A stretch of DNA of 64,000 bases from a virus. The DNA is taken from the IMG/VR virus record IMGVR_UViG_3300023184_000025, positions 186,001 to 250,000 of that record; one strand, written 5' to 3'. Below are positions 7,248-56,097 of this stretch, piece after piece. Under the pieces are notes generated by a model. That model did no database searches. It saw only the letters and a list, made by a program, of their open reading frames with translations, and was not told where the DNA came from. Position 1 is the stretch's first letter, and each line of letters starts with the position of its first letter. The position numbers and the translations under genes were made by a program.

Positions 7248-7559
7248 TTAGGAGAATGATAGGTTTGATACAGCAATCTCGCCAACATAGTCACCAGCGT
7301 TACCGAAAGAACTTGCTGTGTTAGTAAGTTCAATGTAACCGTAACGTGTCATGAATGACACGACTGGTTCGAATGTTGATGGATCAAGCACAACACCACT
7401 GCTCATCAACGGAATGTATGGGCAGTAGAATGCGGCTGCGTCAGCTTCTGAAGAACCTTTGTAACCAACCAACACAGGTGTTGAGTCAGATGCATAAGAG
7501 TCAACGAACACACGCATTGCGCCGTTCAATGTACCAACAAACTTGGTGTTTGTAGGTGC
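7248..7559 (-). CDS. 23: Major capsid protein gp23, C-terminal part beyond an in-frame stop
   Basis: This stretch continues the gp23 frame directly after the TAA at 7560-7562. It encodes about 103 residues beginning APTNTKFVGTLNGAMRVF. It contains the conserved C-terminal capsid pattern FYCPYIPLMSSGVVLDP and ends VGEIAVSNLSFS. No ribosome binding site is seen for independent expression; possible internal starts are TTG at 7529 and ATG at 7517. Taken alone it cannot fold as a capsid subunit. It is best read as the rest of an interrupted gene, or as one intact gene with a base error, giving a full product of about 405 residues. Confidence 0.8.
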   Translation of the reverse strand, partial: APTNTKFVGTLNGAMRVFVDSYASDSTPVLVGYKGSSEADAAAFYCPYIPLMSSGVVLDPSTFEPVVSFMTRYGYIELTNTASSFGNAGDYVGEIAVSNLSFS

Positions 7560-8465
7560 TTAAAATGTGCCTTCTGTAGTACGAGCAAACGCACTAGTTG
7601 TAGCAGACTGAAGAACAGTCAAACTAGCTGGAGATACAACAGCCCAGTTACCAGCACCACGACGTGTGCGTTGAGCGATCAAGTTAGCAACACGGTTGAT
7701 CAGAACTGCCAATGCGGCATGCTCGTCACCAACGAATGTAGCTGTACCTGATACAGTAGCTTGGTTGTATGTGAACTCAGTAGAAGCCAGTGAGCGCAAG
7801 CTCAATAGGATCTCTTGGTCAATCTCAGCTGTAATTTCTTGTGCAAGAGCTGCCATAATTTCGGCTTCAACATCAATACCGTGCATAGCTTGTGCATCTT
7901 GAGCTGCCTCAAATGTCCAACGAGCTTGCAATTTACGTGTTTTGGCTTCAACGGCTTGTTTCAAGATCTGAACGCTGATCTGACGACCACCGTTGCCTTC
8001 AAGGGTTGATGTTGGAGCACCAGCATAACCTTGAGCGGCTGTTTGTGTTGTTGCGGCGTTATCAGCACCGCGAGCGCCTGCAGAGTATGCAACAGCAATC
8101 TTGAATGGTGATAATGCTTCTTCACCAGCAACTACAGAAGTAGCGGCTGCTGATTGGTCAGTCATTGTAGACGCATAGCGTACACGCAGAGTGTGGATTT
8201 GACCAACTGGTCCTGTCATTGGTTGTACACCAACCAACTCGTTAGCAATAACTGTTGGCATGACACGACGGATAACTGGAAGAATCACACGGTTAAGTGT
8301 GGCAATGTTACCTGCTGATGTTGAACCAGCACTTGCGTTTTCTTTCAGGTACTTACGTGTATTCTCTAGGATCACGTTCATCGAGTTGCGACGATTACCT
8401 TTTAGACCTTCGAGCAGGGCTTCTTTAGTCTCGTCCCAACGACCTTCTAATAATTCTTGTGACAT
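7560..8465 (-). CDS. 23: Major capsid protein gp23, N-terminal part ending at an in-frame TAA
   Basis: The 301-residue frame starts at an ATG with a good ribosome binding site (AAGGAGAC). It matches T4-like gp23: an N-terminal basic helix before the prohead protease cleavage region, then LPVIRRVMPTVIANELVGVQPMTGPVG, and a late stretch ending ARTTEGTF. Translation meets TAA at 7560-7562, but the same frame continues with the rest of gp23. A single G to T change in a GAA codon would create this stop. It is the last gene of the gp20-gp23 head operon and forms the hexamers of the capsid. Other genes here use TAA as a normal stop. Confidence 0.88.
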   Translation of the reverse strand: MSQELLEGRWDETKEALLEGLKGNRRNSMNVILENTRKYLKENASAGSTSAGNIATLNRVILPVIRRVMPTVIANELVGVQPMTGPVGQIHTLRVRYASTMTDQSAAATSVVAGEEALSPFKIAVAYSAGARGADNAATTQTAAQGYAGAPTSTLEGNGGRQISVQILKQAVEAKTRKLQARWTFEAAQDAQAMHGIDVEAEIMAALAQEITAEIDQEILLSLRSLASTEFTYNQATVSGTATFVGDEHAALAVLINRVANLIAQRTRRGAGNWAVVSPASLTVLQSATTSAFARTTEGTF

Positions 8466-8484: not shown

Positions 8485-9573
8485 TTAATTCAGTCCTGCT
8501 AAACGCTTGATATCGATAACATTGTTTTTATCTTGTTCAATTGTTCTGACTGTTTTATCACCAGTTACAACACTAACACTCTCACTAATCACCTTTTTAG
8601 CTTTTGGTGTAGAATTAGCTAGTACAGCTGGTAAGTACTTTTCGTAGGCGTTTGTCAAACGGTTAGTTTGGACGCTTTCCAGTAAGTTTTTCATGACTTC
8701 ACGCTTCTCTTCGTTTAGAGGAGAAAGCAATTCCTCCATAGTACCTTGACGTACATTGGATTCTTTGATCATTCGAACTTCACGCTCTTTGGATTCAACT
8801 AAAACTTTAGCATCCTTGGCGATTCTTGTGGCTTCCGCCAGTTGACGTTCTTTTTCTGCGATTACATTGTGCAGTTTACGCATTTCAACTTTCTCATTTA
8901 AATGAGTGTTGCTGAATTCGGCTGCATACGCTTCAAAGATTTTACGTCCAAAGTTATTCTCGCGAGCAACTTTGATATCTTCATTTAACTGTGATAGTTC
9001 AGCTTTTAGATGATGACTAACAGCTTGGCTCATCTTAGCGGCACTTTCTTTTACGAAACGTGACTTTAAGCTTTCCAATTTTGCACGAGCTTCGCGGACC
9101 AACCGAACTTTTGTTTCCACAACGTCCTGTTTATCTTTTGCAAACTCCTGGATCTCTTCTGCAAGAGCCATAACAATGAATTTTTCTAGTTTTTCTAGTC
9201 CTTCATTGTGTGCTTTACGGTCTTTACGTAGTTCGCCAATTTCTTCAGCAAGTTTAGAAACCATAAAGTTGTTGAACTTTGTGGCGCTTTCTTTCATCTT
9301 ACCTTGGAACTTAACGCGATCTTCAGCAAGACTACGCTTTTCAGCGGACACTTGCTCAAGTTCTACTTTGAGACCTTCTGTTACCATGCGATCTAGAGCT
9401 TCTACCATTACAGTCTTATCATGCTCATAGCGTTGTGCAAACTCTTCACGTAGTTCTGCACGTACCATCTCACGTGTCTCATTTAGCTTGGCTTCCCAAG
9501 CTTCAGAGATCTCGCTACGAGTTTCCTCGTTGATCAGGTCGCTATCTAATAACGGTTTAATAGCATCTAGCAT
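8485..9573 (-). CDS. 22: Prohead core scaffold protein gp22
   Basis: The 362-residue protein is almost wholly helical and charged, rich in Glu, Lys, Ala and Arg, with long heptad-like stretches (for example LAEEIGELRKDRKAHNEGLE). That is the expected form of the main internal scaffold, which is digested by the gp21 protease before packaging. Its place between the protease and gp23 matches T4 order. T4 gp22 is 269 residues, so this one is longer. GGAGAA precedes the ATG. The tail (NNVIDIKRLAGLN) may contact capsid subunits, an inference. Confidence 0.85.
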   Translation of the reverse strand: MLDAIKPLLDSDLINEETRSEISEAWEAKLNETREMVRAELREEFAQRYEHDKTVMVEALDRMVTEGLKVELEQVSAEKRSLAEDRVKFQGKMKESATKFNNFMVSKLAEEIGELRKDRKAHNEGLEKLEKFIVMALAEEIQEFAKDKQDVVETKVRLVREARAKLESLKSRFVKESAAKMSQAVSHHLKAELSQLNEDIKVARENNFGRKIFEAYAAEFSNTHLNEKVEMRKLHNVIAEKERQLAEATRIAKDAKVLVESKEREVRMIKESNVRQGTMEELLSPLNEEKREVMKNLLESVQTNRLTNAYEKYLPAVLANSTPKAKKVISESVSVVTGDKTVRTIEQDKNNVIDIKRLAGLN

Positions 9574-9583
9574 GCGATTCTCC

Positions 9584-10210
9584 TCAAATCTTGAGATCTT
9601 TGATGAGCTTAGTAATTTCGCCCTTCAAATATCTCTGTACTTTGTTGTCCTGGCCAGCGTCACGTGCTATTTCTAGCACACGATGTCCGTATTTCATATT
9701 CATCAAGCCTTCATAGATGGCTTTTGGATATGCGTTAGGCGCACTGGGTTGGGCAACCACATCTACAGTAACTATTTCAAAGTCACTGACATGTCCGTTG
9801 GCCTCGTTTACGTTTCCGGAACCGCGGCTCGAAACTCCTAATTTAACACCACTTTCCAACATAGTTTTAACTAGTTGACCCATTGGTGTTGGTAAAATTT
9901 TTAACTTTCCGAATCCGTTTGGACCATCCATCCACATAGATGTGATCATATGGCTAACTCGGTCAAGATTAATTTTAAGATCGTCTGGGTGATCTACTTC
10001 ACCCATAACAGAATAGCCATTGGTAATCTGTTCATTTAACGTGCCAACAGCACGTTCAATTTCGTTAACTGGGTACACACGTTCGTTGGCGTTTTTAACT
10101 CCGCCCTGAATGCAGATTCCTACCATGTGGAGATCCTTACCTTCACCCGAGCCTTCAACAATAATGTTGGCCTGGTTAAAGGTAAGATTTTCTCTAAGGT
10201 AAAGAGCCAT
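9584..10210 (-). CDS. 21: Prohead maturation protease gp21
   Basis: The 208-residue protein has the expected length (T4: 212). Family signatures are visible: a strand-loop GEVDHPDD with the likely catalytic His74, and GVSSRGSG (residues 125-132) with the likely catalytic Ser127 or Ser128. NGYSVMGEVDHP and SDFEIVTVDVVAQPSAP are typical neighbours. The enzyme cleaves scaffold, core proteins and the gp23 N-terminus during capsid maturation. It lies between core protein and scaffold in T4 order, with a short GGT-type ribosome binding site before the ATG. Confidence 0.92.
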   Translation of the reverse strand: MALYLRENLTFNQANIIVEGSGEGKDLHMVGICIQGGVKNANERVYPVNEIERAVGTLNEQITNGYSVMGEVDHPDDLKINLDRVSHMITSMWMDGPNGFGKLKILPTPMGQLVKTMLESGVKLGVSSRGSGNVNEANGHVSDFEIVTVDVVAQPSAPNAYPKAIYEGLMNMKYGHRVLEIARDAGQDNKVQRYLKGEITKLIKDLKI

Positions 10211-11377: not shown

Positions 11378-13147
11378 TTATCCTGCTGGTGTAGGACCAG
11401 GTGGTGTGATACCTGCGGCAGGCTGAGATCCAGGGGCCAGGCCAGCTTCTGCACCAAGATCTGGAGTTGCTTGCGCATCAGCCATTTCTTCACCGGTTTG
11501 AATATCAGTTTCAAAATCAGCTGGTGTAACGCCCACACTACGTAGATCCTGACCAGTTGAGCCCGGAGCATCAGGTTGTGCTCGCTCTTGATGCCAGAGT
11601 TCTTCATTTTCTGCAATTTCTTCTTCGGACAAGCCAAGGTAACGTTTTAATAAGAAACGTTTTGCTAGATAAGGAACTTGTTCTAATGCACCAAACGTGC
11701 TGACTCTTGTGGTATCTAATTCAGCTTCGCGGTAACTGGCAAAGTTCTGTGGCGGATTAAACTCAATACTGAATAGCCCTGAGTCAATATTAAATCCTCT
11801 CCAACGCATGAACATTTTGAATTCATCGTCAAGTTTTTCTACAACTAAACGCTGTAGTCGTTCACAGTACTGGTTAAAACGGTATTCTTGTATGAGCGCA
11901 GTACCCACACGACCATCATTCATTGGACGGTCGCTGTCGTCAGGACCAGTGGGTAAGTAACTGCTGGGCACACGCAACCCACGACACATCTTGTTGTTAA
12001 AATACTTTAAATCGTCAATTTCGCCAAGATTTGAACCACCAGGTAATGTATCTACGCTACTGCCACGACCGTCTGCTGTTTGTGGAAAGAAGTAATCTTC
12101 GTTGATACTCAACGGGTTATAGCTCGAATCCATGACATTTTGTCCGCCACCGGTATGACTAGGAATTCTACGTTGGTGAATTTCGTTTTTAACTCGTTCA
12201 ACAAAGGCCATAGCCATGTGACTTGGCATGTTACCCACATCAATTTTAAAAATTCTACGTTCTGGTGCACGACTCACACGATAGATCAGCACTGAATCTT
12301 CTAGCAGTTCTTTTTGCTTGAACACACGGAAAATTGTTTCCAGTACACTCATACCAAACGGCCAATAAAAGTCTAGGCCTTCACTTAAACTCAGGTGTAC
12401 TACATGTTTTGCATCAATAACTGTTTCGTTCATTGCGGCACTAAATCTATTACCGCCCGACCCGCCCGCACCAGCATTGGGTGCTGAATAGTTGTAAGGT
12501 GCTGTGTATCCAGTTGACGGTGGATTACTCTGAAAATCTGTTGTGGTTTTAACTGCTATTGAAAGATTTTGAAAGTTGGGATTGATGTCGCGAATTACAT
12601 ACTGTTCGGGTCGTTTGCCTTCGCTTTCGTTCACAATCACACGAGCCACTTTGGTCATGTCTACCCAGTACATTTCAAATGTTTCTGGATCGCGCACAAA
12701 CACTTGATCTCCGTATTTTAATGTGTTACGGAAAATACGGAACATGCGCTGATCTAACTTATTGAGCTTGACCCATTGCTGAAGCTGTTGCTTGATAATA
12801 CTAATTTCATTGTCTGTGGGAGTTTCGTTGTACTGTACTTCAAAAGGAGTTGAGTTGTTTTCGTTCTTTTGAGTAGAAAATTCTGCCAGAATATCAAGAC
12901 AAGCATTGATTTCACTGTCACTGTCCATGTTTTCGTATTGGTTATAACGCTCAACACGATTTGGATGGCCAGTGTAGACTTCTGGTAATCTGCTGGCATA
13001 GTTTCTATAAACAATGTCAGCATGTCCTTTCATGGGATCTTGACCATTGTTACGACCGTAGCCAGGAAGTCCATCTGAACCTTTTCCTGATAGAGGACTT
13101 AGTTCACCATTTGAGTTAGCAACTTTAAAATATTTTTTCCAAGACAT
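11378..13147 (-). CDS. 20: Portal vertex protein gp20
   Basis: The 589-residue protein begins MSWKKYFKVANSNGELS and has typical gp20 patterns: NRVERYNQYENMDSDSEINA near the start, VHLSLSEGLDFYWPFGMS, and the conserved C-terminal block from PMNDGRVGTALIQ through the NPPQNFASYRE part. Twelve copies form the portal ring through which DNA is packaged and to which the tail joins. The length is close to T4 (524) with an added Ala/Pro/Gly-rich C-terminal tail. A GGTAAATA late-type motif lies eight bases before the ATG. Confidence 0.93.
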   Translation of the reverse strand: MSWKKYFKVANSNGELSPLSGKGSDGLPGYGRNNGQDPMKGHADIVYRNYASRLPEVYTGHPNRVERYNQYENMDSDSEINACLDILAEFSTQKNENNSTPFEVQYNETPTDNEISIIKQQLQQWVKLNKLDQRMFRIFRNTLKYGDQVFVRDPETFEMYWVDMTKVARVIVNESEGKRPEQYVIRDINPNFQNLSIAVKTTTDFQSNPPSTGYTAPYNYSAPNAGAGGSGGNRFSAAMNETVIDAKHVVHLSLSEGLDFYWPFGMSVLETIFRVFKQKELLEDSVLIYRVSRAPERRIFKIDVGNMPSHMAMAFVERVKNEIHQRRIPSHTGGGQNVMDSSYNPLSINEDYFFPQTADGRGSSVDTLPGGSNLGEIDDLKYFNNKMCRGLRVPSSYLPTGPDDSDRPMNDGRVGTALIQEYRFNQYCERLQRLVVEKLDDEFKMFMRWRGFNIDSGLFSIEFNPPQNFASYREAELDTTRVSTFGALEQVPYLAKRFLLKRYLGLSEEEIAENEELWHQERAQPDAPGSTGQDLRSVGVTPADFETDIQTGEEMADAQATPDLGAEAGLAPGSQPAAGITPPGPTPAG

Positions 13148-41300: not shown

Positions 41301-41815
41301 CAACCGCCTACGCTAAACTAGATGACTATAAGATGATTTCAGACAATCTGGTTCCTAACACAGTGATCTTTAAGCCATTATTTGGTCCCAAAGCCGCCAC
41401 ACAATTACAAGCAACAATTAAAGTTGTTAAAGCACCAAAAGTAACAGCCACAGTCAGCGAAATTAAGAGTCAAGTTGTTGCAAATGTAAACAATTATTTT
41501 ACCATTGATAAATGGGATTTTGGCGATAGCTTTTACTTCTCTGAATTGGCTGCATACCTACATAAACAAATGGGTTCTATTATTAGTTCTGTGGTTCTTG
41601 TCCCACTAAACCCATTAAAGAGTTTTGGTGATTTATATGAAATTAGATCAGCGCCAAATGAAATTTTTGTGAATGGTGCTACAGTGGCTGACGTTCAAGT
41701 GATTGATGCACTAACACAAAGTAACATTCAAAGTCAAACTCCGGTATCAGGGTTATACCCTGTCAGCACCACTGGAAGATTAAACAGCACACTAAGTCAG
41801 ACGGGTGAATATTAA
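38342..41815 (+). CDS. 6: Baseplate wedge protein gp6
   Basis: The 1157-residue protein starts with KRLYQTYREADFQSYDFETL, followed by SSEFIALLDVMAFMGQSLAF, NDLNTRENFMDTAERRDSVV and NLISYTPKRNEAAQGF, the clear N-terminal pattern of gp6. Middle and C-terminal parts are beta-rich (DQITLTFGDGVFSEVPVGF). gp6 forms the inner ring of the baseplate with gp7. T4 gp6 is 660 residues; the extra length lies in the middle and end. The stop overlaps the next gene's start (TAATG). Confidence 0.92.
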   Translation: MAKTARQTAIFGVEDWKRLYQTYREADFQSYDFETLRKSFVDYLRLYYPETFNDYIESSEFIALLDVMAFMGQSLAFRNDLNTRENFMDTAERRDSVVRLANLISYTPKRNEAAQGFLKVFSVSTTENVVDYNGINLSNVTIDWNDPTNPNWFEQLTLIINASLVDSQKYGRPGNKQTLLGIDTSEYAINLVPGFLPVIPYTTPVDGVNMPFEAVSGTSQGKDYIYEPAPRPNGVFNVVYRNDSLGYGSENTGFFFLFKQGVLQNQDFNLAEALPNRTVNINIEGINNQDYWLYQLDNIGSIATEWKYVESVYAAALEQLAPDQRKIYSITSRTNDQITLTFGDGVFSEVPVGFYRTYVRASNGLKYIINPEEMQSISLPISYISRTGRLETITFTCGITTPVSNAAPRETIDEIKQRAPARYYTQNRMVNGEDYNNFPFTLYNSIIKSKAVARSSTGTSRYVDFTDITGKYSSTNIFASDGVLYRQNVLPSFDFAWINRNDIVDTIANSIEPILPSRSMQQFYYENYPRPSLSVLNFAWNQSTTVVKETTGYFYVGTPAAPQSIGSYASNNAKYLTQGSLIKFVAPTGYFFDTNNKLVVGVPVRGDEKLVIWATIMAVVLDGTNQGLGNFPDGTGPVILNNFVPTGALAVEVIPKFIDDLPSTIRQQMLQQIELFRNFGLGYNNLTATWYLITSSNLHQDAPFSLSYAQNTEGLNLDASWLIQFITNGVSYTVVSRGLDYIFASVLQTRFTFDGNENIYDSRTGLVINDFIRVLKTNSKPDSNQPLTSDITMDIIAQPVQSDGYANDYEVVVSYVDSDADGVADNPDFFDEIVAPDVDPNSKLVFLKQTVDFDNLERYLPVEPGIVNSQYATKDDIEVVKTQFISGQVFYAYTEKVFYELVFTVVNGNVQRTLVQSNIYRARIGRQTLGFQYRHNSPLTNIIDPGTTNIIDLYLVVEEYYIAYQNYIKDTTGTVPEPNPPTISELSTAYAKLDDYKMISDNLVPNTVIFKPLFGPKAATQLQATIKVVKAPKVTATVSEIKSQVVANVNNYFTIDKWDFGDSFYFSELAAYLHKQMGSIISSVVLVPLNPLKSFGDLYEIRSAPNEIFVNGATVADVQVIDALTQSNIQSQTPVSGLYPVSTTGRLNSTLSQTGEY

Positions 41816-44800
41816 TGGCAATACGCAGACGTACAATTGACCTTCTACCAGAGATTTTTCGCACAGACACAAACCGAAAGTTTTTGTCTGCTACGTTAGA
41901 TCAACTGACACAAGAACCTATCACAAAGAAAACACAAGGTTATGTAGGCCGTCGTGTTGGCCCTGGGGTGAACCCTGCAGATTATTATGTCACAGAGCCA
42001 ACGGCCATAAGAACAAATTATCAGCTCGAACCAGGTATTATTTTCTTAAAACCTGATACTAGCACAGCCATTGACGCAATCACATATCCAGGCATGGTTG
42101 ATGCATTAGAGTTACAAAATGCCAATGTTACCAAACAAGATAGACTCTTTGAAAGCCAGTATTATTCTTGGGATCCTTTCTGCGACTTTGATAAGTTTTC
42201 AAATTATAGTCAGTACTACTGGCTACCACAAGGGGTAGACAGCGTTGACATCAGCACAACTGAAGTTCCACTAACTGACACTTGGGAAGTAACTCGCGGA
42301 ACTGACGATTACACATTTAGCGACGTTCGGGGCAAAGATCCAATCATTACCGTTGCACGTGGCGGCAGTTATCAATTCACAGTGAATCAACCTGGTAGTA
42401 ATTTCTGGATTCAAGCTGAGCCAGGCATTAATGGCCGGTTATCAGCAACTCCAAATATTAGCAGTAGAGGTGTACTCGGTGTAGTCAACAATGGTGAAGA
42501 CCAGGGCACAGTCACTTTTAATGTTCCGTTGAAAACTGCTCAGGACTTTTACTACAACTTAAATGATATCGGCAGCGTTGACCTTGTAACAACCTTAAAC
42601 TTTAATCAGATTAATAACATCTCTGTTGCGCAGTTCTTGCAACAATTTCCAAATGGAATTGACGGTACCACCAACCTCAATAACAAAACTGTTATTTTTC
42701 TAAACAGGAATTCAGATGCTGAATCGGGCGGCTGGCAATTAACTACACCATTTGACCCATTGGTTCGTACAGTACCTAATCAGGTTGGTACATCTATTAG
42801 CTACGATATAAACGGAGAGCCCTATGATTATGTTCCCTATGAAACACTTACGGATATAATTGTCAGTGGTGAACCTGATCCATTAGATGGCCAGCCAGGC
42901 AGCTACGACAGCATTTTATTTGATCAGACAACAGATATCACATCACAAGCACAGCGTTATAGTGTTTGGCAAATTCAATATATTTCCGAAACTGGACTAG
43001 ATCCATATATTCGTCTGTCCAGTATACTGCCTGTGAATAATCTCAGTAAGTTTAAAATCTTGTTCGGAGAAACTTATAGCAGTACTTCATGGTATAAGAA
43101 TGCATCGGGCTATTTTGAGCAAATTCCTTTACTGACAGCAGTACTCAACACGCTGTGGTATCAAGACAGTACTAATCCTGAAATTTTTGGACAAATACGA
43201 CTAATTGATGCCGAGCAAGTAGAACCAATTGATATCAATGACATCATTGGCGCTAAAAATTACATTAGTCAAAATGGTGTTGAGTTTACCAATGGATTAA
43301 AAGTTCAATTTCGTGGACCCACAATCCCTGCTGGCTATCAGGATCTAGAATACTATGTTGAAGGTGTTGGCACCGGACCGGGCATTTCTGCTCGAGTTGG
43401 ATTTATTGACGGAGAAGCTTATTTTGGTGCCTGGCATCTTAAAGGTAATCAAAAAATCACAGGAACAATACGTCAGACTGACGTGTATCAACAATATATC
43501 TATGATACCGTGGAAGAAAGTCTGCTCAATATTGGCACCGGTGAAACAACTGGTACACCATTGGCAACCAGTGGCGTAGCAGGAGCACCAAGAGGCAATG
43601 GTATTATTTTAATTCCAGTTAGCGAACTAGTAACTCCAGAAACATATACCAAAAGTGAAACTATTCCTTATGATTTTACATCATACGATTCTACTCCCTG
43701 GGATGCTAGTTTAAATGCGCCAACGGTGCCTGATTACATTACAATAAATCGTGCAAGCCAGGATAGAAATGCCTGGAGTCGTAGCAATCGTTGGTTCCAC
43801 AAAGATGTTATTAATGCCACTGCTGAATACAATAATCAGGTGGCAGTTATAGATAATAATTATAGAGCAAAACGCCCAATTATTGAATTCCGTGCCAACA
43901 TTGATTTATACAATAACGGAACACAGGCCAAACCACCAGTTAACATTGTTGACTTTGCCATCACAGATGCATTCAGCAATATCAACGGCCAACGAGGCTA
44001 TAGCACTGATGGGTATACATTTATTGATGGAAGCCTTGTGATTTTTGCCAACGATTCAGATGCAACTGTACGCAATAGAATCTACAAAGTTAAGTTTATT
44101 GATACCACAGGCACGGGAGCTAAAATTATTGACTTAATCCCAGTTATCAACAGTCAAGCATTGGTAAATCAAACTGTTGTTTGTCTAAGCGGCAATACAC
44201 AGCAAGGAAAAAGCTATTGGTTTGACGGAGTATCTTGGTACGAAGCACAGGAAAAAATTGGAGTTAACCAACCACCGTTGTTTGATGTGTTTGACCCTGA
44301 TGGAGTAAGTTTTGGCAATCGTGCAGTTTACCCTAGTTCAACATTTACAGGGTCAAGATTGTTTGGATACGGAGTAGGAACCACATCGTCAGTAGACGTT
44401 GTGCTTGGTTTTTCTTTAAAATATTTGAATATTAATAATCTTGGTGACATTGTATTTGAAAATTACTTGTACAACGATACTTTTATCTATGTCAAAGATA
44501 ACATAAGTTCAGAATTAAAAGTAAGCACTGGGTTTGTTAGAGAATATATTGACCGTGTATCGTTTACCGAAGTGATCGGCTGGCAAAAAGCGGCAGCAGA
44601 AAACCGCAGCCGCCAAATATTTAGATTTACATACAACGGTGAAAACTTAAAACTAGATGTGCCCGTGACAACTACATCAGTGTTCCCAGCAGTACAGATG
44701 TTTATTGAAGGTGTGTTTGTTGACCCAACCAAGTATTCAGTTACTATTAATGGGCAAAATACCATAATTGAATTGGCCACTACTCCTGCACTTGGCACAA

Positions 44801-47800
44801 TAATTGAACTACAAGTACTGAGCAACTATGCAAGTAAAGTCGGATTCTATGAAGTTCCGTTAAATCTTGAAAATAATCCTCTTAACGAAAACAGCGGATC
44901 GTATACTCTTGGCACAATCAGAACCCACTATGAAAGTATTGGGCAAAATCTTAAAAATATTGTCGGACCAATCAATGGCGCAAATAACACTCGAGATCTT
45001 GGAGATTTAATTCCGTACGGTGACAACATCGTGCAACACTCTGCTCCACTGGCACTAACAGGTGTATTCCTTAGAGAACAACAATACGAGTTGTTTAATT
45101 CTTTAAGATTTAACAGTCAAGAATACACAAAATATAAATCATTGTTGCTGGACTTGGCTGCCAAAGGAAATTACATTAACTTAACACCAACTCAGGTGTT
45201 GGATTCTGTACTACAAGAAATTTCAATAGGCCGATCAAATCTGTCTCCATTCTACTGGAGTGACATGATTCCCAGCGGAGAAACATACGCTGAAATAACA
45301 TACACATATTCGTTTACCAGCGACAGTACATTTGATCTATCAACAATTTATAATTTTACATCTTCAAACTACCACAGCGTATTAGTTTACTTAAACGGAA
45401 ATATACTAACTCGTGAGTATGATTATACAGTATCTGCAGATTCTCCTACAATGACAATCACAGCAACTTTAGCCGTTGGGGATGTCATTAAAATTCGCGA
45501 ATATAACACAACCTATGGTAGTTACGTTCCAAACACACCAACAAAAATTGGATTATATCCAGCATTCAAGCCATCTATGTTTGTGTCAGACACCTATGTT
45601 AATTCAACAGAAGTAATACAAGGACATGACGGCAGTATTACTGTAGCATTTGGAGATTTCCGAGATCAAGTGTTATTAGAATTCGAAACACGAATCTTTA
45701 ATAACTTAAAAATTATCAGTGAAATTCCAATAACCCTAGACGACGTCATGCCCGGACAATTTAGAACCACTGAATATTCTCTTACTGAAATTAACAATAT
45801 TCTCAGCGAAGATTTTTTAAGCTGGGTAGGATGGAATAAACTTGACTACAATACTCAGTTTTATGTACCATTAAATCCGTTCACATATAATTACAGCCAG
45901 AGTGCAAACAAGTTAGATAATCAACCACTGTTGGGTAACTGGCGCGGCAATTACTTGTATTTTTACGATACAATTACTCCTAATACAACCCCCTGGGAAA
46001 TGCTTGGATTTAGTCAGCAACCATATTGGTGGGAAGCAGAATACGGTCCTGCGCCATACACATCAGGAAACTTGGTATTATGGGATGATCTTGAAAAGGG
46101 CCTAATCAAAGACCCAGTCGGTTACTATGTTGACCCACGATATGTACGTCCTGGGCTAACTCAGGTTATCCCGTCAGGGTCGGAAGGAGAGTTAACCAGC
46201 CCATTTAATTCAATAGTTGGAAATTTTGACCAAACCAGTTTCAGACGTAGTTGGGTGTTTGGCGATGATGGCCCAGTAGAGTCAGCCTGGCGCACCAGTA
46301 GCGCCTGGGCATTTGCTGTAATGCGATTATTGGCATTAACTAAACCCGCTAAGTTTTTTGCATTATTTGCCGACAGAGATCGTTATGTATATGATTCTGC
46401 ACATGAGCAATATCTATGGGACAATCGTTACCGTCTTGATGCTAAAAATCTAGAACCGTTATATGGTAACGGTGTCAGCAAAGCCAGCTATATTGACTGG
46501 ATCATTGACTACAATCGTCAGCGAGGTATTAATAGTACAACAGGATTAACTGATTCATTATATAACATTGATGTACGGCTCTGCTGGAGAATGGCTGCAT
46601 TTAGCGATAAAAATTATTTAAAAATTTATACTGAACGCTCTACACCAAACAGTTTAAATGCAAGTTTAATGTTGCCCGATGAGAGCTATCAATTATTACT
46701 ATATAAAAACCAACCTTTCTCAAAGATTGTCTACAGCTCTATTGTTGTACAAAGCTCTGAGGACGGTTGGGCTGTGTATGGCTACAGTAACAATGCTCCT
46801 TACTTTAATATATTAGTATCAAAACCAAGCGGAAAGACCCTCACCATTTCTGCCAACGGCGTTAATATCAGTGTTCCAGTTGAATATTCAGACACAGTGG
46901 CCGAAGTTCCATACGGATATGCATTTACTAACAAGGCCGCAGTCTGCGATTTTATTTTAAGCTATGGTAAACTTCTTGAAACTCAGGGTTTGATTTTTGA
47001 AAATAGAGAAAACGGTTCTGCTCTTAACTGGCAACAAATGGCTCAAGAATTTGTGTACTGGAGCAATCAGGGATGGGCACCAGGTGCAATTATCAATCTT
47101 AACCCAGCGGCAACATCAATTTCTGTTACACGGCCAGGCGCAGTGGTAGAAAGCCTAGTGCCAGTTACTATCGATAACATTATTTTAAATCAAAATCGTA
47201 CACCTGTTCCTGGAACTGATCTACAAATTGATCGTTTTGGTAATACATTTAAAGTTTCTAGTTTAACTTCAAACACTATTAACTTTTTAAATTTAAAATT
47301 TACTGCCTACGAACACCTTGCAATTCTTGACAATACCAGCATTTTTGCTGACTTGATATATCAACCGGTGACCGGCGCACGTCAAAGTCGAGTTCGAGTT
47401 TTTGGCACACTAAGTGGTGACTGGAACGGTACAGTTGATGCCCCAGGGTTTGTGTTAAACCAGGACAACATTGTGGCCTGGATACCAAATAAAAAATACG
47501 CCAAGGGTGAAATTGTATTATTTAAAAATGAATACTGGAGTGCAAGTACAATAATTCAGCCGTCACAGGAATTCAATTATTCTGTTTGGATTAAAAGTGA
47601 TTATGGACAAATACAAAAAGGCCTGCTGCCAAATGCCGCCAATGACAGCAACCAGCTGGCACAAGCATACAGCATTTATAGCGCAAACTTAGAACGTGAT
47701 GTTGATTTATTCAGTTATGGGTTGATTGGTTTCCGTCCTCGCGAATACATGCAGGCCCTTAATCTTACCGATGTAAGTCAGGTTAACCTATACCAGTCGT

Positions 47801-50800
47801 TCTTGGGAACAAAAGGTACTCCACGTGCCGCAGAAATTTTTAGCTTTGCCAATCTAGGCAAAGAAATTGCACAGTATGACATTTATGAATACTGGGCCGT
47901 GCAACGCAGTACCTACGGTGCCAATGCCAATCGTAGCTATTTTGAGTTATTATTGAATCAGGCATTGTTGCCCAGCGATCCTTCGTTGATTGAAATTATT
48001 TTACCAACACAAGAATCGCCTGCGGATCAAACAGTACTTTTGCAAAATATCTGGAAAGAAAGTTACAAACTAACATCCACAGACATTTTGCCAACAACTA
48101 CAGACAATTTTAGTGTTACTCGTTTGCCAATTGCTGGCTACGTAAATTTTGATGATGCAGATATTACCTGCTTCAGCTTAGAAAATCCTCAGACCATTGC
48201 TGACAGCTTGCCATCTATTGGAGTTGGTACAACAATTTGGGTTGCTAAAACCAATTCCTATGATTGGAACATATATCGTGTTGGTAAAGTTCCAGGAACA
48301 ATTACCACAGTCACAGATAACTTAAACGATCGTGCCGCAGTTACATTTACTAAAGAACACAATTTGTCTGTGGGTGATTTTATAATTATCAAAGGGTTTG
48401 ATGTAGCAATTGACGGAGTTTACAACATATTAGCTGTTCCTACCCTGACCACAGTATTAATTTATTATACTTTTACTGGAGGGTTGACTACACTAACTGG
48501 TACAGGAATTCCATTTACACTAGTAAGTTCACGATTTAAACAAGCATCAGACTTGGCCAATAATCCAATATCGTCTCAATTGGTACCTGGTGCTATGGCC
48601 TGGATTGATGACAACGGAATTGAAAACAAGTGGTCAGTGATTGAAAAAACAAGCCCGTTTGAACTCAAAACAATTTTAACGCCAGCAATTAGCGTTGAAA
48701 ATTCACGATTTGGTGCCAGTGTAAGCCAAGGTTTTGAAAATATTGGTGCGCTGGTTGGTGCTCCAGGATACAATCCCAACAACGATGTTAATGTTCCCGG
48801 CGGAGTTTATAGTTATGTTAAAGCTGAAAATGATCAATACGTTCAAAACATACTGCTTCAACTAGGGGCTACCAATACTGTTGGCTACGGAAATGCCATT
48901 GATATTGGTGGACAAAATTGGGCCGCTGCCGGTGCCAGCGAAAGCAATAACAAGCAAGGCTATGTTGGTGTAATTTATCAATATCCTTCTAGCAATGTAT
49001 TTGAACAACGTCAACTGTTAGTTTCTCCTGATCAGGATTTTGGTCAAGGAGAGTTTGGTTACAGCGTTGCAGTCAGTGCCAATGATCAATGGATGTACAT
49101 TGGCGCACCAGGCAACAATAAAGTATATGCGTTTACTCAAGTTGATATACCAGAACAAAGAGTCAGATACATCACCGACGGTGTGAGCTATGTTTACAAC
49201 TATAATAATAGTATTATTATCAACAGCGACGAACAAATAACAGTAACGCTGGGTGATGAGATTTTAGTATACGGTGCTGATTATACAGTCACACTAGAAA
49301 ATGTAGTTCTTGGTACTGTTCCAACCGCTGGTCTTCCGCTGGTTATTACACGTAACAGTTCAGTTAATCTTGATCAACAGGTTTATTATAATGTTACACA
49401 AGACGTAACATCAGGGTCGGGGTCAGGAGCTGAATTTACCATCTGGAGAAATCGTGGTGTATACTATGTGACATTAACTTCACCGGGCACAGCCTATGCA
49501 GTTGGTAACACAATTGTCATTGATGCCACAACCATTGGTGGTGGTACAAGTCCTGCCAATGACTTAACAATTACAGTGACTGCTGTAGTGTCGGGTGGCA
49601 TAGTTTCATTCACACAGTCCGGCAGTGGAGTTTCAAATACTTCAGTATTTCCACTTGATCCTTACTTGTACACCGCCACAGATATCTTTTCATTCAGTGT
49701 CACAGTTAACGGACAACTGTACAGACCGTTTATTGACTATGATTTCAACAGTGACAGCGCACTAAGCTCACTGGATTTGGTGTTTAACACCATTCCACCT
49801 GCAGACTCATCAATCACAGCAACAAGTAAAAGTTACTATACATTTGTAACTGCTCTTACTGTTCCAGGATTGGTCAACACAGCAAGGTTTGGTCAGAGTG
49901 TGGTTACACCAAAGACCGGTGGTACTGTGATCATTGGAGCACCAAATGCAACCGAGGCCGGACAAGCCTATGTGTTTGATCGAGTAGTAGAAAGATTTAT
50001 TGTTACAGATTCAACAGTTACTTCTTATACAACTACAGACACTCTTGTTGGTCCAACCACAGTTACTTTAAATGGTGCGTTTTTATTAAACACCGACGGA
50101 AACATTGACGGAACATTCTCAGTAGCTGGAAATACTGTAACAATTACAACCGCTTTAAATGTTGGTGACATCATAGAAATTAATGTAAATCAATTTAATC
50201 TAATCCAAACTGTAGAAGATGAAGATCAAACAGCATTTGCTAATTTTGGATATACAATCGAACAATGTTTAAGTGGTTGTAATTTGTTTGTGGGATCACC
50301 ACTTGATGGTGACCGTAGTCCACAGGGTGGCGCAGTTGATTATTACATTAATCAGAGCGGAATGTACGGAACTACCACTACTACTGTGGCCAATCCAACA
50401 TTGGCCCCCGGAGATTCTATACGTATTAACAATACTGTGGTTGAGTGCTCAGGAACAACTGTTGCAGAGTTGGCTGCTGATATCACTGCCGCTAATATTC
50501 CAAACGTAACAGTTTCAATTATTCCCAATGTTGAATTATTTGGGGATGGAACAACAAAAATATTTGATGTTGGGAACATATATTCAAACGCATATTCGTA
50601 CACTCCGGTAGTGTATGTAAGAAATGTATTTCAAACGTTGAATGTTAACTACACTTATAGCAGTGATAGCAAACAAATTACATTTATGCTTGCCCCTGGG
50701 GTATACGATCCCATCAGAGTTGTAGCAGGAAGATTAACCATTGGAGTTAAAAACTTTGAAGCATCAACGCCTTCTTACAGACTAACAGTATTACCATGTG

Positions 50801-53800
50801 TTGGTCCTTTATTTGATGCTCTTGGAATTAATACGTATGTCTGGTTGCAAGATATCTACCCGCCAGTGATACAAGATTATGCTAATTTTGGCAAGGCAAT
50901 TTCTATCAACACAGAAAGTACAATGTTAATCATTGGCGCACCAAATGGATCAATTGTTGCACCAACAACATTTGATAATGGCACCACGTACTTTGATGAT
51001 TACAGCAGTAATTTCTTTGATCCTGTTAAACAAAGTGGAGTGGTCTACGAGTATGATTTCTTACCGTCGGCCAACCCAAGTGCCACAAATCCTGGAAGAT
51101 GGGTATTTGGTCAGCAGTTATTTGAAGATACAATTGAATCACTGGATGCGCTAGGAGCGGCAGTTGATTACACATCAGGACATATCTTTGTTGGTGCACC
51201 CGGTGCAGACCTAGGCGATAGCCAGGTTAACTATGGCAAAGTATTGCAGATTGAAAACCCAACAAGATCACAGTCCTGGACAGTTAAACATATTCAACAA
51301 CCAATGGTTGATATAGCATCAATGAACACAGTATTCATGTATGATCGTGTGACTGGTGCTGCCAAAAACTATTTTGACTTCTTTAATCCATTGCAAGGTC
51401 GAATGCTAGGCGTGATTGAACAAAACGTTGATTACACAGGTGCAGTTGATCCTGCCGCATATAATGTTGGCACAGTGAATAACTATGGAAGTAGCTGGGC
51501 TCAGGAACGTGTTGGAAAAATCTGGTGGGACACAACCAATGTTCGATTCATTGACCCCAACCAAAACGATATTGTATATGCAAGTCGGCGCTGGGGACAG
51601 ATTTTCCCAGGTAGCTCTGTTGATGTTTACCAGTGGACTGCCACAGATGTAGCACCAGTTAACTATACAGGACCAGGAACGGTGTATGCCACTGACCAAT
51701 ATGTAGTTACTTCTTCGTTGAATGAACAAGGTGTGTTTGTCACCACTTACTACTTTTGGGTAAAAGGAATTACCACAGTTAGTAAGACTGCAAGAAAAAC
51801 ATTAAGTCCTGAAGCAATCACACGATACATTGAAAATCCACGTGCTAGTGGAATTCCATACATTGCTCCAATTAATGCAAGCACTATTGCAATTTACAAC
51901 GGCCTAGGTTTTATTTCAGCCCAGGATACTGTGCTACACACTGAATTTGACAGAGAACAAACCGAAAACGAAGTTCACGTTGAGTACCAGTTGATTCCTC
52001 AGGACCGCCCTGACGGATTCTTGATTGATTCATTGTATCGTAAACTACAAGACAGTTTCTGTGGAGAAGACACAGCAGGTAGTCCTGTACCTGATCCGTT
52101 TTTAAGTCCGAGCGAAAAATACGGTGTACAGTTCCGTCCACGCCAAAGTATGTTTGTCAACAGATTTTTGGCTTTACAAAACTATCTGCAACGTAGTAAC
52201 ACAATTTTAGTTCAGTATCCAATTGCAGAAAACAGAAATTTATCTTTGTTAAACAGCGAAGAACCACAGCCGTCGGTGGCTTCTGGCGCCTGGGATAAAC
52301 GTGTTGCCAATATTGAAGAACTAAGCTATCAGAATCTAGCCGAGGTGCCATTTGGATACACGTATCTAGTAGAAAGCGACAGTACCAACAATGGTTTATG
52401 GACAATCTACGAAACAACTCCGGGATTTATTCCTGGAGAGAAAGTGTTATCGTTGATCCGTGTACAAAGTTATAATACTAAAAAGTATTGGAACTATATC
52501 AACTGGTATCGCCCAGGTTATAACCCACTAACTAGAATTTTAATGGAAATTCCAACATATTCTGCGTTAACAACAATCTCAGTTCCCAACGGAAGTAGTA
52601 TTAAAATTACTGCAAATGCCCAAGGCAAATGGGAAATTTATTTGCTTGAAAGTGGAGTGTGGAATAGGGTTGGATTACAAGACGGAACAATTGAATTTTC
52701 TGCCACACTATGGAATTACTCAATTGGACGGTTTGGATTTGATGTTGAGGTTTTTGATGCTCAATATTACGACCAGGAACCAGTAACTGAAACACGCAAA
52801 ATTATACAGAGTATAAATCAAGAATTATTTGTTGGTGATTTATTAATTGAACGTAATCGACTATTGATATTGATGTTCAATTATATATTGTCCGAACAAG
52901 AAGCACCAGTATGGATAACCAAGACCAGCTTAATTGATGTTGATCATACCGTGCGCAATCTTGAGCCATACCAAATTTATCGTGCAGACAATCAAGACTT
53001 TGTGCTGAACTATATTCAAGAAGTAAAACCTTACCATACACAGATCAGAGAGTTTAATCTGCGTTATCAAGGAAACGATATTTTCCAGGGAAGTTTAACT
53101 GACTTTGATGTCCCGGCATACTATAACACAACTCAGAATAAATTTATCAGCCCAATACTTGAGTACAACGGACTAATTTATTCTGACTCAGACTCACTGG
53201 CTCCTGTTACTGACCCAGTGTGGTCAACTTGGCCGTTTACTCAGTGGGTTAATAATTATCTATTAAGCATAGAAAATGTTACCATTGTCAATGGCGGCTC
53301 CGGTTATACTATTGCACCCGATGTGATTGTTACCGGTGATTGTCAGACGCCAGCAGTGATGACAGCATTAATTAATAGTGCTGGTAAAGTAGTTGCAATT
53401 GAAATTATCAACCCAGGTGTTGGTTATCAGACCACTGCAATCGTTACCTTATCTGGTGGCAACGGATCTGGCGCCACAGTAGTTGCTGTAATGGGCAATG
53501 CAATGGTGCGTGAGTTAACCACCACAATTAAATACGATCGTTGTCAATACAGCAGTATAGTTGTTGATTGGGAACCCAACGTTAATTACAGCAACGGCAC
53601 ATTAGTGCGTTATGATAATCGTGTTTGGATAGCTGATTCAAGCGACAGCACTGGGGTGCAAAGCAGTACATTTGACCCATCACAGTGGGAAATAAGACCA
53701 GCCGGTGAGTTGCAAGGCGCTGACCGTACCATGGGATATTATGTTCCAACTGCCAACGAACCAGGACTTGATCTTGGACTATTAATCTCTGGGGTAACGT

Positions 53801-56097
53801 ATCCTGGAGTACAGGTTGCCGCGCCCAGCTTTGCATCAAACACCGGCTACGATGTTGGTAATTATGATATCAATCCGTTTGATAACATCTCAGTTGGACC
53901 CGACGGCCAACCAAGCTACGATCCTGCTATACTTGATGCAATCTATGAAAGCGAATTTATAGACAGTTATCTGGGTATTCGCCCAACTGATGTCAATGTA
54001 GTTGGCGGAGAATTCATTGACACTTATTCGAGTTATGCCCCAGAAGAATTAGTACCAGGTGCAATTTTTGATACTCTGGATATTCGTGTGGTAACTACGC
54101 CCGGATCTGACTGGGACCATAATGGTCATGGATTCCCAATAGTTGTTGTGGCGTACACATATGACGGAATCGACAATGACTTCAGCTTTGCTGGTCTAGT
54201 TGATTATCCTGATCAAGTACGTGTGTGGAATGCAACAACTGGGCAACAATTAGTTCTTGGAGACCATTACATTGTTAATTGGGTAGCAAGAACAATAACA
54301 GTTACATCGAATATTTCCACAGGCGATAATGTTTCTATCAGCGTGTACGGCATTGGTGGCGGCAATCAATTGTACAAATATGCATTTAATGGTGCAGTGG
54401 TCAATGACGGAATTATAATTCCAATTGGTTATGATTTAATAGCTACATTTGCAATTTTTGTCAATGGAGAATTAGACACAGACTTTACATTTACACCCAC
54501 AGACGATGTTCGCGGCCTGCCATCAACATTGTTGACATTGAACAATACCTATCAAGTGTCTGATCTTGTGGTAGTAACTGCAATGGGGTACACAGCCGGT
54601 ACTACAAATTATACGTATCAATGGAGCACTCCACTGACACAATACATTGTGGCCGATGGAACAACGTTATCGTTCACACTATCTGAGAGTTTGTCAGGAA
54701 CTAATCCAGCAAACATCATTGTTGAGAAAAATGGTAATCGAGTTCGACCAGCTGAAAGTGCTGAATATATTTCTGATGGATCAAGTCTAGAGTACTACTT
54801 GCCAAATAGAGGAGCATATAGTCAATCACTAGTGGCTGACAATGATGTTGCAGTTTACATTGATACTGTGCCATTAATTCTTGGTGTTGGTTATGTAGTT
54901 AATCCGTATGTTGCTGGTAACGATAGAACCATCACTCTGAGTGCATTGCCTAGTATTGGATCAACGGTGTTGATCTCGGTGAGAACTGCATCTCCATACT
55001 ATCTCAGCGGCAACCAATTGATCTTTAGACCCGCTGGCGGAGTTATTCCAGTAGCAGGAGATATAATCAGTGTTACAACATTTAACGATACAGCACAACA
55101 AGAATTGTTAACTCAGGTGTTTGTTGGTCCTGAAACACAAGGCACGGTAATAACAGAAAGCTATGACGAAACAGTCTATGATTTAGGAACAATTAATAAT
55201 GACCCAGGATCTTATGATTATAGCGAAGGTATTTTGATTCAAACTAATAAATTTGATACTGGTAGACCTATTGCCAACGGCGCCCGCGTGATTGTAACAC
55301 TCAACGGAAGATACTTGTTTGAAAACAATGATTATTATGTTGACGGACAATATATTATCATTGCAGGACCACCAATTGGAGCTGCCGCAGTTGTGACCAT
55401 TGCTAGTTATACAGACAGCGTTATTCCAGGTGGCATTGAATTCCGTATATTCCAAGACATGCGAGGCCTACAAACTACCTATAGAGTCACCACCGACACA
55501 TCGACTGTGCTGGTACAGCCAGTACAAGAAAACGACGACATAATTTATGTCGACGATGCCACACATCTAGGTGATCCAGATTTACCAAATGGTATTTTTG
55601 GTATTGTGGTAATTGACGGTGAACGAATTACCTATCGATATAAAGACACAGGGTTGAATACTATCAGCGGTCTGCGTCGAGGCACGGCCGGTACCGCTGT
55701 TGCCAATCACCAGGTTGGTGATTCTGTAATTAATTCAGGATTCTCAAATGCCCTACCATCTGAATATCAAGATAAAATAGTTTATCAGAATTATCTGTCA
55801 GGCGGCGATCAAACTGTTTTTGTTGCTGAAAATATCAGTTTAACTGGCGATATAAACACTCTTGAAAATACTGTACAAGTGTATATTGCCGGAACACTAC
55901 AACATGGTGGGTACACAGTAAATTCTATTGCTCCAGTAACAGTCGAGTTTGATACTGCACCAGTACAAAATTATCAAGTTTCTATACAGGTACGTCAAGG
56001 AAAGAGTTGGTACGAACCTGGGGAAAGTACTGCAAGCAACGGGCAAGCACTACAAGTCACCGATACCCAGGCAGCAAGGTTTATCATGGGCGAATAA
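41815..56097 (+). CDS. Giant gp7-like baseplate wedge protein with FG-GAP beta-propeller
   Basis: One uninterrupted frame encodes 4760 residues, against 1032 for T4 gp7. The start (LLPEIFRTDTNRKFLSATLD, then DPFCDFDKFSNYSQYYWLPQ) is the conserved N-terminus of large wedge proteins placed after gp6 in marine T4-like phages. Many beta-sandwich modules of the form DGxxxxFxL...VxVNGxxL...DYTV occur. Residues about 2297-3150 contain seven FG-GAP-like repeats (FGASV...VGAPG and similar), the count of a full integrin-type propeller. Near residue 3820 there are Gly-Tyr repeats (NGGSGYTIAPDVIVTG). The end is an acidic-helical tail (DTQAARFIMGE). gp7 identity is by position and N-terminal pattern. Confidence 0.78.
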   Translation: MAIRRRTIDLLPEIFRTDTNRKFLSATLDQLTQEPITKKTQGYVGRRVGPGVNPADYYVTEPTAIRTNYQLEPGIIFLKPDTSTAIDAITYPGMVDALELQNANVTKQDRLFESQYYSWDPFCDFDKFSNYSQYYWLPQGVDSVDISTTEVPLTDTWEVTRGTDDYTFSDVRGKDPIITVARGGSYQFTVNQPGSNFWIQAEPGINGRLSATPNISSRGVLGVVNNGEDQGTVTFNVPLKTAQDFYYNLNDIGSVDLVTTLNFNQINNISVAQFLQQFPNGIDGTTNLNNKTVIFLNRNSDAESGGWQLTTPFDPLVRTVPNQVGTSISYDINGEPYDYVPYETLTDIIVSGEPDPLDGQPGSYDSILFDQTTDITSQAQRYSVWQIQYISETGLDPYIRLSSILPVNNLSKFKILFGETYSSTSWYKNASGYFEQIPLLTAVLNTLWYQDSTNPEIFGQIRLIDAEQVEPIDINDIIGAKNYISQNGVEFTNGLKVQFRGPTIPAGYQDLEYYVEGVGTGPGISARVGFIDGEAYFGAWHLKGNQKITGTIRQTDVYQQYIYDTVEESLLNIGTGETTGTPLATSGVAGAPRGNGIILIPVSELVTPETYTKSETIPYDFTSYDSTPWDASLNAPTVPDYITINRASQDRNAWSRSNRWFHKDVINATAEYNNQVAVIDNNYRAKRPIIEFRANIDLYNNGTQAKPPVNIVDFAITDAFSNINGQRGYSTDGYTFIDGSLVIFANDSDATVRNRIYKVKFIDTTGTGAKIIDLIPVINSQALVNQTVVCLSGNTQQGKSYWFDGVSWYEAQEKIGVNQPPLFDVFDPDGVSFGNRAVYPSSTFTGSRLFGYGVGTTSSVDVVLGFSLKYLNINNLGDIVFENYLYNDTFIYVKDNISSELKVSTGFVREYIDRVSFTEVIGWQKAAAENRSRQIFRFTYNGENLKLDVPVTTTSVFPAVQMFIEGVFVDPTKYSVTINGQNTIIELATTPALGTIIELQVLSNYASKVGFYEVPLNLENNPLNENSGSYTLGTIRTHYESIGQNLKNIVGPINGANNTRDLGDLIPYGDNIVQHSAPLALTGVFLREQQYELFNSLRFNSQEYTKYKSLLLDLAAKGNYINLTPTQVLDSVLQEISIGRSNLSPFYWSDMIPSGETYAEITYTYSFTSDSTFDLSTIYNFTSSNYHSVLVYLNGNILTREYDYTVSADSPTMTITATLAVGDVIKIREYNTTYGSYVPNTPTKIGLYPAFKPSMFVSDTYVNSTEVIQGHDGSITVAFGDFRDQVLLEFETRIFNNLKIISEIPITLDDVMPGQFRTTEYSLTEINNILSEDFLSWVGWNKLDYNTQFYVPLNPFTYNYSQSANKLDNQPLLGNWRGNYLYFYDTITPNTTPWEMLGFSQQPYWWEAEYGPAPYTSGNLVLWDDLEKGLIKDPVGYYVDPRYVRPGLTQVIPSGSEGELTSPFNSIVGNFDQTSFRRSWVFGDDGPVESAWRTSSAWAFAVMRLLALTKPAKFFALFADRDRYVYDSAHEQYLWDNRYRLDAKNLEPLYGNGVSKASYIDWIIDYNRQRGINSTTGLTDSLYNIDVRLCWRMAAFSDKNYLKIYTERSTPNSLNASLMLPDESYQLLLYKNQPFSKIVYSSIVVQSSEDGWAVYGYSNNAPYFNILVSKPSGKTLTISANGVNISVPVEYSDTVAEVPYGYAFTNKAAVCDFILSYGKLLETQGLIFENRENGSALNWQQMAQEFVYWSNQGWAPGAIINLNPAATSISVTRPGAVVESLVPVTIDNIILNQNRTPVPGTDLQIDRFGNTFKVSSLTSNTINFLNLKFTAYEHLAILDNTSIFADLIYQPVTGARQSRVRVFGTLSGDWNGTVDAPGFVLNQDNIVAWIPNKKYAKGEIVLFKNEYWSASTIIQPSQEFNYSVWIKSDYGQIQKGLLPNAANDSNQLAQAYSIYSANLERDVDLFSYGLIGFRPREYMQALNLTDVSQVNLYQSFLGTKGTPRAAEIFSFANLGKEIAQYDIYEYWAVQRSTYGANANRSYFELLLNQALLPSDPSLIEIILPTQESPADQTVLLQNIWKESYKLTSTDILPTTTDNFSVTRLPIAGYVNFDDADITCFSLENPQTIADSLPSIGVGTTIWVAKTNSYDWNIYRVGKVPGTITTVTDNLNDRAAVTFTKEHNLSVGDFIIIKGFDVAIDGVYNILAVPTLTTVLIYYTFTGGLTTLTGTGIPFTLVSSRFKQASDLANNPISSQLVPGAMAWIDDNGIENKWSVIEKTSPFELKTILTPAISVENSRFGASVSQGFENIGALVGAPGYNPNNDVNVPGGVYSYVKAENDQYVQNILLQLGATNTVGYGNAIDIGGQNWAAAGASESNNKQGYVGVIYQYPSSNVFEQRQLLVSPDQDFGQGEFGYSVAVSANDQWMYIGAPGNNKVYAFTQVDIPEQRVRYITDGVSYVYNYNNSIIINSDEQITVTLGDEILVYGADYTVTLENVVLGTVPTAGLPLVITRNSSVNLDQQVYYNVTQDVTSGSGSGAEFTIWRNRGVYYVTLTSPGTAYAVGNTIVIDATTIGGGTSPANDLTITVTAVVSGGIVSFTQSGSGVSNTSVFPLDPYLYTATDIFSFSVTVNGQLYRPFIDYDFNSDSALSSLDLVFNTIPPADSSITATSKSYYTFVTALTVPGLVNTARFGQSVVTPKTGGTVIIGAPNATEAGQAYVFDRVVERFIVTDSTVTSYTTTDTLVGPTTVTLNGAFLLNTDGNIDGTFSVAGNTVTITTALNVGDIIEINVNQFNLIQTVEDEDQTAFANFGYTIEQCLSGCNLFVGSPLDGDRSPQGGAVDYYINQSGMYGTTTTTVANPTLAPGDSIRINNTVVECSGTTVAELAADITAANIPNVTVSIIPNVELFGDGTTKIFDVGNIYSNAYSYTPVVYVRNVFQTLNVNYTYSSDSKQITFMLAPGVYDPIRVVAGRLTIGVKNFEASTPSYRLTVLPCVGPLFDALGINTYVWLQDIYPPVIQDYANFGKAISINTESTMLIIGAPNGSIVAPTTFDNGTTYFDDYSSNFFDPVKQSGVVYEYDFLPSANPSATNPGRWVFGQQLFEDTIESLDALGAAVDYTSGHIFVGAPGADLGDSQVNYGKVLQIENPTRSQSWTVKHIQQPMVDIASMNTVFMYDRVTGAAKNYFDFFNPLQGRMLGVIEQNVDYTGAVDPAAYNVGTVNNYGSSWAQERVGKIWWDTTNVRFIDPNQNDIVYASRRWGQIFPGSSVDVYQWTATDVAPVNYTGPGTVYATDQYVVTSSLNEQGVFVTTYYFWVKGITTVSKTARKTLSPEAITRYIENPRASGIPYIAPINASTIAIYNGLGFISAQDTVLHTEFDREQTENEVHVEYQLIPQDRPDGFLIDSLYRKLQDSFCGEDTAGSPVPDPFLSPSEKYGVQFRPRQSMFVNRFLALQNYLQRSNTILVQYPIAENRNLSLLNSEEPQPSVASGAWDKRVANIEELSYQNLAEVPFGYTYLVESDSTNNGLWTIYETTPGFIPGEKVLSLIRVQSYNTKKYWNYINWYRPGYNPLTRILMEIPTYSALTTISVPNGSSIKITANAQGKWEIYLLESGVWNRVGLQDGTIEFSATLWNYSIGRFGFDVEVFDAQYYDQEPVTETRKIIQSINQELFVGDLLIERNRLLILMFNYILSEQEAPVWITKTSLIDVDHTVRNLEPYQIYRADNQDFVLNYIQEVKPYHTQIREFNLRYQGNDIFQGSLTDFDVPAYYNTTQNKFISPILEYNGLIYSDSDSLAPVTDPVWSTWPFTQWVNNYLLSIENVTIVNGGSGYTIAPDVIVTGDCQTPAVMTALINSAGKVVAIEIINPGVGYQTTAIVTLSGGNGSGATVVAVMGNAMVRELTTTIKYDRCQYSSIVVDWEPNVNYSNGTLVRYDNRVWIADSSDSTGVQSSTFDPSQWEIRPAGELQGADRTMGYYVPTANEPGLDLGLLISGVTYPGVQVAAPSFASNTGYDVGNYDINPFDNISVGPDGQPSYDPAILDAIYESEFIDSYLGIRPTDVNVVGGEFIDTYSSYAPEELVPGAIFDTLDIRVVTTPGSDWDHNGHGFPIVVVAYTYDGIDNDFSFAGLVDYPDQVRVWNATTGQQLVLGDHYIVNWVARTITVTSNISTGDNVSISVYGIGGGNQLYKYAFNGAVVNDGIIIPIGYDLIATFAIFVNGELDTDFTFTPTDDVRGLPSTLLTLNNTYQVSDLVVVTAMGYTAGTTNYTYQWSTPLTQYIVADGTTLSFTLSESLSGTNPANIIVEKNGNRVRPAESAEYISDGSSLEYYLPNRGAYSQSLVADNDVAVYIDTVPLILGVGYVVNPYVAGNDRTITLSALPSIGSTVLISVRTASPYYLSGNQLIFRPAGGVIPVAGDIISVTTFNDTAQQELLTQVFVGPETQGTVITESYDETVYDLGTINNDPGSYDYSEGILIQTNKFDTGRPIANGARVIVTLNGRYLFENNDYYVDGQYIIIAGPPIGAAAVVTIASYTDSVIPGGIEFRIFQDMRGLQTTYRVTTDTSTVLVQPVQENDDIIYVDDATHLGDPDLPNGIFGIVVIDGERITYRYKDTGLNTISGLRRGTAGTAVANHQVGDSVINSGFSNALPSEYQDKIVYQNYLSGGDQTVFVAENISLTGDINTLENTVQVYIAGTLQHGGYTVNSIAPVTVEFDTAPVQNYQVSIQVRQGKSWYEPGESTASNGQALQVTDTQAARFIMGE
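48694..51250 (+). repeat. Seven FG-GAP-like protein repeats inside the giant wedge gene
   Basis: Repeat cores begin near 48703 (FGASV), 48883 (YGNAI), 49053 (FGYSV), 49884 (FGQSV), 50246 (FGYTI), 50887 (FGKAI) and 51150 (LGAAV). Each is followed by a GAP-like turn (VGAPG, AAGAS, IGAPG, IGAPN, VGSPL, IGAPN, VGAPG). Spacing is uneven because other beta domains are inserted, mainly between the third and fourth repeats. In integrins such repeats make a seven-blade propeller that binds ligands and metal. Confidence 0.75.

Follow-up and report, generated by a model that had tools for sequence, protein, structure and literature searches.

In this 345-kb T4-like jumbo phage contig, the gp23-like major capsid protein gene is interrupted by a single in-frame TAA. 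This stop almost certainly reflects either a wrong base in the assembly or an isolated lethal mutation, rather than a novel mode of decoding. We consider an error in the consensus base of one assembled record to be the best explanation, with a probability of roughly 0.75. The actual gp23 would then have a continuous frame and yield a 405-residue capsid protein by ordinary translation, the TAA would be without function, and most of the phage molecules sampled would carry a sense codon at codon 302. The window analyzed is a 64-kb stretch corresponding to bases 186001-250000 of the parent virus record G000 (345,154 bp), in which the base at the stop site is identical.

The capsid gene lies on the minus strand (7248..8465) and comprises 405 codons plus a terminal TAA. 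Its frame opens with an ATG at 8465, preceded by an AAGGAG Shine-Dalgarno sequence, runs through 301 sense codons (the intact upstream part, 7563..8465), is broken at codon 302 by the TAA (7560..7562), and then continues through 103 sense codons (the intact downstream part, 7251..7559) to close in the same frame at the TAA at 7248-7250. The codon before the stop is TTT and the codon after it is GCA, both as given in the initial annotation, whose description of the interrupted frame was confirmed. The conserved C-terminus which that annotation had placed beyond the stop was likewise recovered, with the post-stop frame reaching up to 99% amino-acid identity to relatives; a chance alignment of open reading frames was rejected on this ground. 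An intron, intein or insertion at the stop was also rejected, as the gene has the same length and reading frame as its relatives.

When read through the stop, the product matched the Pfam family Gp23 (PF07068) with an E-value of 5e-99 over residues 54-383, a match which spans the stop, covers most of the domain (profile positions 1-354 of 376) and scores 332.6 bits against a curated cut-off of 24.4. The protein belongs to a jumbo-phage branch close to Vibrio phage 2.275.O, Asteriusvirus and Eneladusvirus, with alignment identities of 69% to Vibrio phage 2.275.O and 64-66% to Salmonella phage SD-15_S21 and Serratia phage BF; it differs from these T4-like relatives in the one in-frame TAA, which is in none of them. 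The gene order of the surrounding head cluster, all on the minus strand, is that of T4-like phages: an intact gp20-like portal protein (11378..13147) and an intact gp21-like prohead protease of the Peptidase_S77 family (9584..10210), both assigned by Pfam, are followed by a prohead core or scaffold-like protein of 362 aa (8485..9573) and then by the capsid gene. The core protein had no Pfam match and is named by position only; in phages BF and S-RIM2 a scaffold gene also precedes gp23. The interruption at this one site means that the record is broken; in all other respects the gene is whole, and its family membership stands. Elsewhere in the window, a single plus-strand open reading frame of 4760 aa (41815-56097) is very long for a phage gene.

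To compare codon 302 across relatives, 80 IMG/VR loci were gathered using peptide patterns which excluded that codon. Glutamate was present at the site in 80/80 of these loci and a stop in 0/80, so that the alignment to related gp23 sequences which the initial annotation had proposed as a check also placed the TAA one substitution away from the family codon, in keeping with the single-base origin suggested there. A separate comparison of 207 matches holds duplicates as well as loci picked with a pattern that itself specified the Glu codon, and the unbiased figure is therefore 80 of 80. The same glutamate is present in the cultured relatives Vibrio phage 2.275.O, Salmonella phage SD-15_S21 and Serratia phage BF, and the position varies in the more distant XacN1, S-RIM2 and T2. 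The closest relatives share about 94-96% DNA identity across the head region, and their gp23 differs by three residues and the stop. The stop is the only gp23 residue absent from every relative; each of the other 404 was seen in at least one. Degenerate scans for any stop codon within the surrounding motif returned nothing from IMG/VR, nor from a collection of bacterial and archaeal genomes, whereas at least 120 stretches of IMG/VR carried this motif with Glu in place of the stop; these scans may omit the genome of the window itself and its nearest neighbours, so a twin of the record could be missed. The relative L127 (IMGVR_UViG_3300023206_000019) bears two copies of the capsid motif, one on each strand of a 4-kb contig, and has a stop where codon 399 aligns; it is perhaps a chimeric assembly.

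The 103 codons beyond the stop are conserved as strongly as the rest of gp23 and carry a signature of purifying selection. Codons 303-405 showed no nonsynonymous changes when compared with L002 (7 synonymous), L009 (31 synonymous) or L008 (70 synonymous), indicating that selection acted on this tail up to a very recent time. Such a pattern would not be seen if this part of the gene had gone untranslated for an appreciable period. Since no nonsynonymous change is found in the tail and all other residues are known from relatives, the stop would have to be extremely recent, not real, or translated through.

With respect to the first two of these, the change turns TTTG into TTTT and so lengthens a short homopolymer; this is consistent with a sequencing error, albeit as weak evidence. 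Against a base error, the rest of the contig looks clean and its overall error rate is not obviously high. A scan for broken genes was made by comparing the genome with six related genomes, with homology over about 221 kb. The gp23 stop was the only flagged break backed by more than two of the six, being backed by five, and was the only in-frame stop in this genome found in a gene supported by several relatives. The other flagged breaks rest on one or two relatives, and several are wrong-strand open reading frames, such as G003|189-488, which is antisense within the capsid gene. An apparent frameshift near G000:96000 involves a short open reading frame with a TTG start and one supporting relative. 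As a baseline for assemblies of this kind, the near-clonal relatives G001 and G003 were compared, and were 99.996% identical over 72 kb with three base differences. All three were nonsynonymous and one was nonsense: a lone in-frame TAA (L119; G003:57011) in a 383-codon gene that is otherwise open, where G001 has TTA. Isolated false or unfixed stops therefore do occur in such assemblies, although this baseline is one pair and gives a rough rate only.

A real and very recent nonsense mutation, with the sequenced molecules derived from a defective or minority genome and the change lethal on its own, is the strongest of the alternatives but is unlikely. Such a genome could have been sampled as DNA, or briefly sustained by a co-infecting intact phage. 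A single substitution suffices for this explanation, the conservation of the tail requires only that the change be recent, and the apparently clean state of the rest of the genome is consistent with it. In T4, gp23 is essential, as established by gene 23 amber mutants. No second gp23 copy was found in the parent record, which has one major capsid gene only, and an allele carrying the stop should for both of these reasons be rare. An assembly, however, normally reports the majority base, and the allele was present in no other scanned viral contig. The classical T4 gene 23 amber mutants, in which a single nonsense codon likewise lies within the gene for the major head protein, were obtained by laboratory selection on suppressor hosts, whereas here the stop is ochre, occurs in an environmental consensus sequence and has no known suppressor. 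The initial annotation had listed a base error, a mutant minority, a defective genome and read-through as the possible causes. This was the right list, although read-through found no support, and what is left is an error versus a private nonfunctional mutant.

There is next to no support for translation through the stop, the recoding of TAA or a split capsid. Programmed read-through, or decoding of the TAA by a suppressor tRNA, yielding a short capsid protein alongside the full-length one, is highly improbable. While the frame past the stop is open and conserved, as read-through would require, no relative shares a stop at this site, and the RNA around it folded no better than shuffled sequences (z -0.64), giving no sign of a stimulating structure. 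None of the 28 tRNAs of the parent record has an anticodon pairing with UAA (TTA). TAA also terminates 227 of the 346 open reading frames of at least 100 aa, 34 of which have G as the next base, as does the gp23 stop; together with the lack of a UAA-reading tRNA, this upholds the argument against a changed code made in the initial annotation. Phages that read TAG or TGA as an amino acid resemble the present case in having an in-frame stop in a structural gene (PMC9523058, PMC13037316). In those phages, many genes contain in-frame stops and a suppressor tRNA is often present (PMC9523058, PMC13037316), whereas the present stop is a single TAA, a codon not depleted as a terminator here, and the phage has no suppressor tRNA of its own. 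Among 10,754 jumbo phages surveyed, recoding of TAA was found in none (PMC13037316). It is extremely improbable that this one capsid UAA is decoded at a useful efficiency by the phage or its host, through a host suppressor or strong read-through, so that two capsid forms are produced. The chance that gp23 is made as two polypeptides by re-initiation, which then assemble together, is smaller again and close to nil: both parts are intact and in-frame ATG, GTG and TTG codons occur after the stop, but the internal starts tested within 62 codons of it lack the Shine-Dalgarno motif that precedes the true start, no relative is split, and the break sits inside the gp23 domain, with T4 gp23 chains of solved structure aligning on both sides.

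We thus return to a consensus base error as the preferred explanation: the stop was seen in no other scanned record, frame and length are otherwise intact, and the recoding apparatus looked for was not found. These data caution that, where an environmental assembly shows an isolated in-frame stop within an essential gene of a phage, this is not evidence of recoding, and a function for the gp23 stop should not be sought. Most of the question is settled without reads by the residue found at codon 302 in relatives, the selection seen in the tail, the tRNA set and the near-clonal baseline.

The 28 tRNA genes of the parent record cover most amino acids and are located at G000:293608-307992 (L104 and L105), outside the window; no tRNA genes were found within the 64-kb window itself. 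Also outside the window, on the minus strand at G000:287900-288233 (L104:7900-8233), the phage carries a circularly permuted, two-piece tmRNA with the tag ANDEQFALAA, which matched the Rfam families beta_tmRNA (120 bits) and tmRNA_permuted (112 bits). Two-piece tmRNAs are already known from aquatic phages (PMC9004378). A permuted tmRNA is also present in the relative G003, where the tag is ANDSQFALAA, and the presence of this permuted form hints at a betaproteobacterial host.
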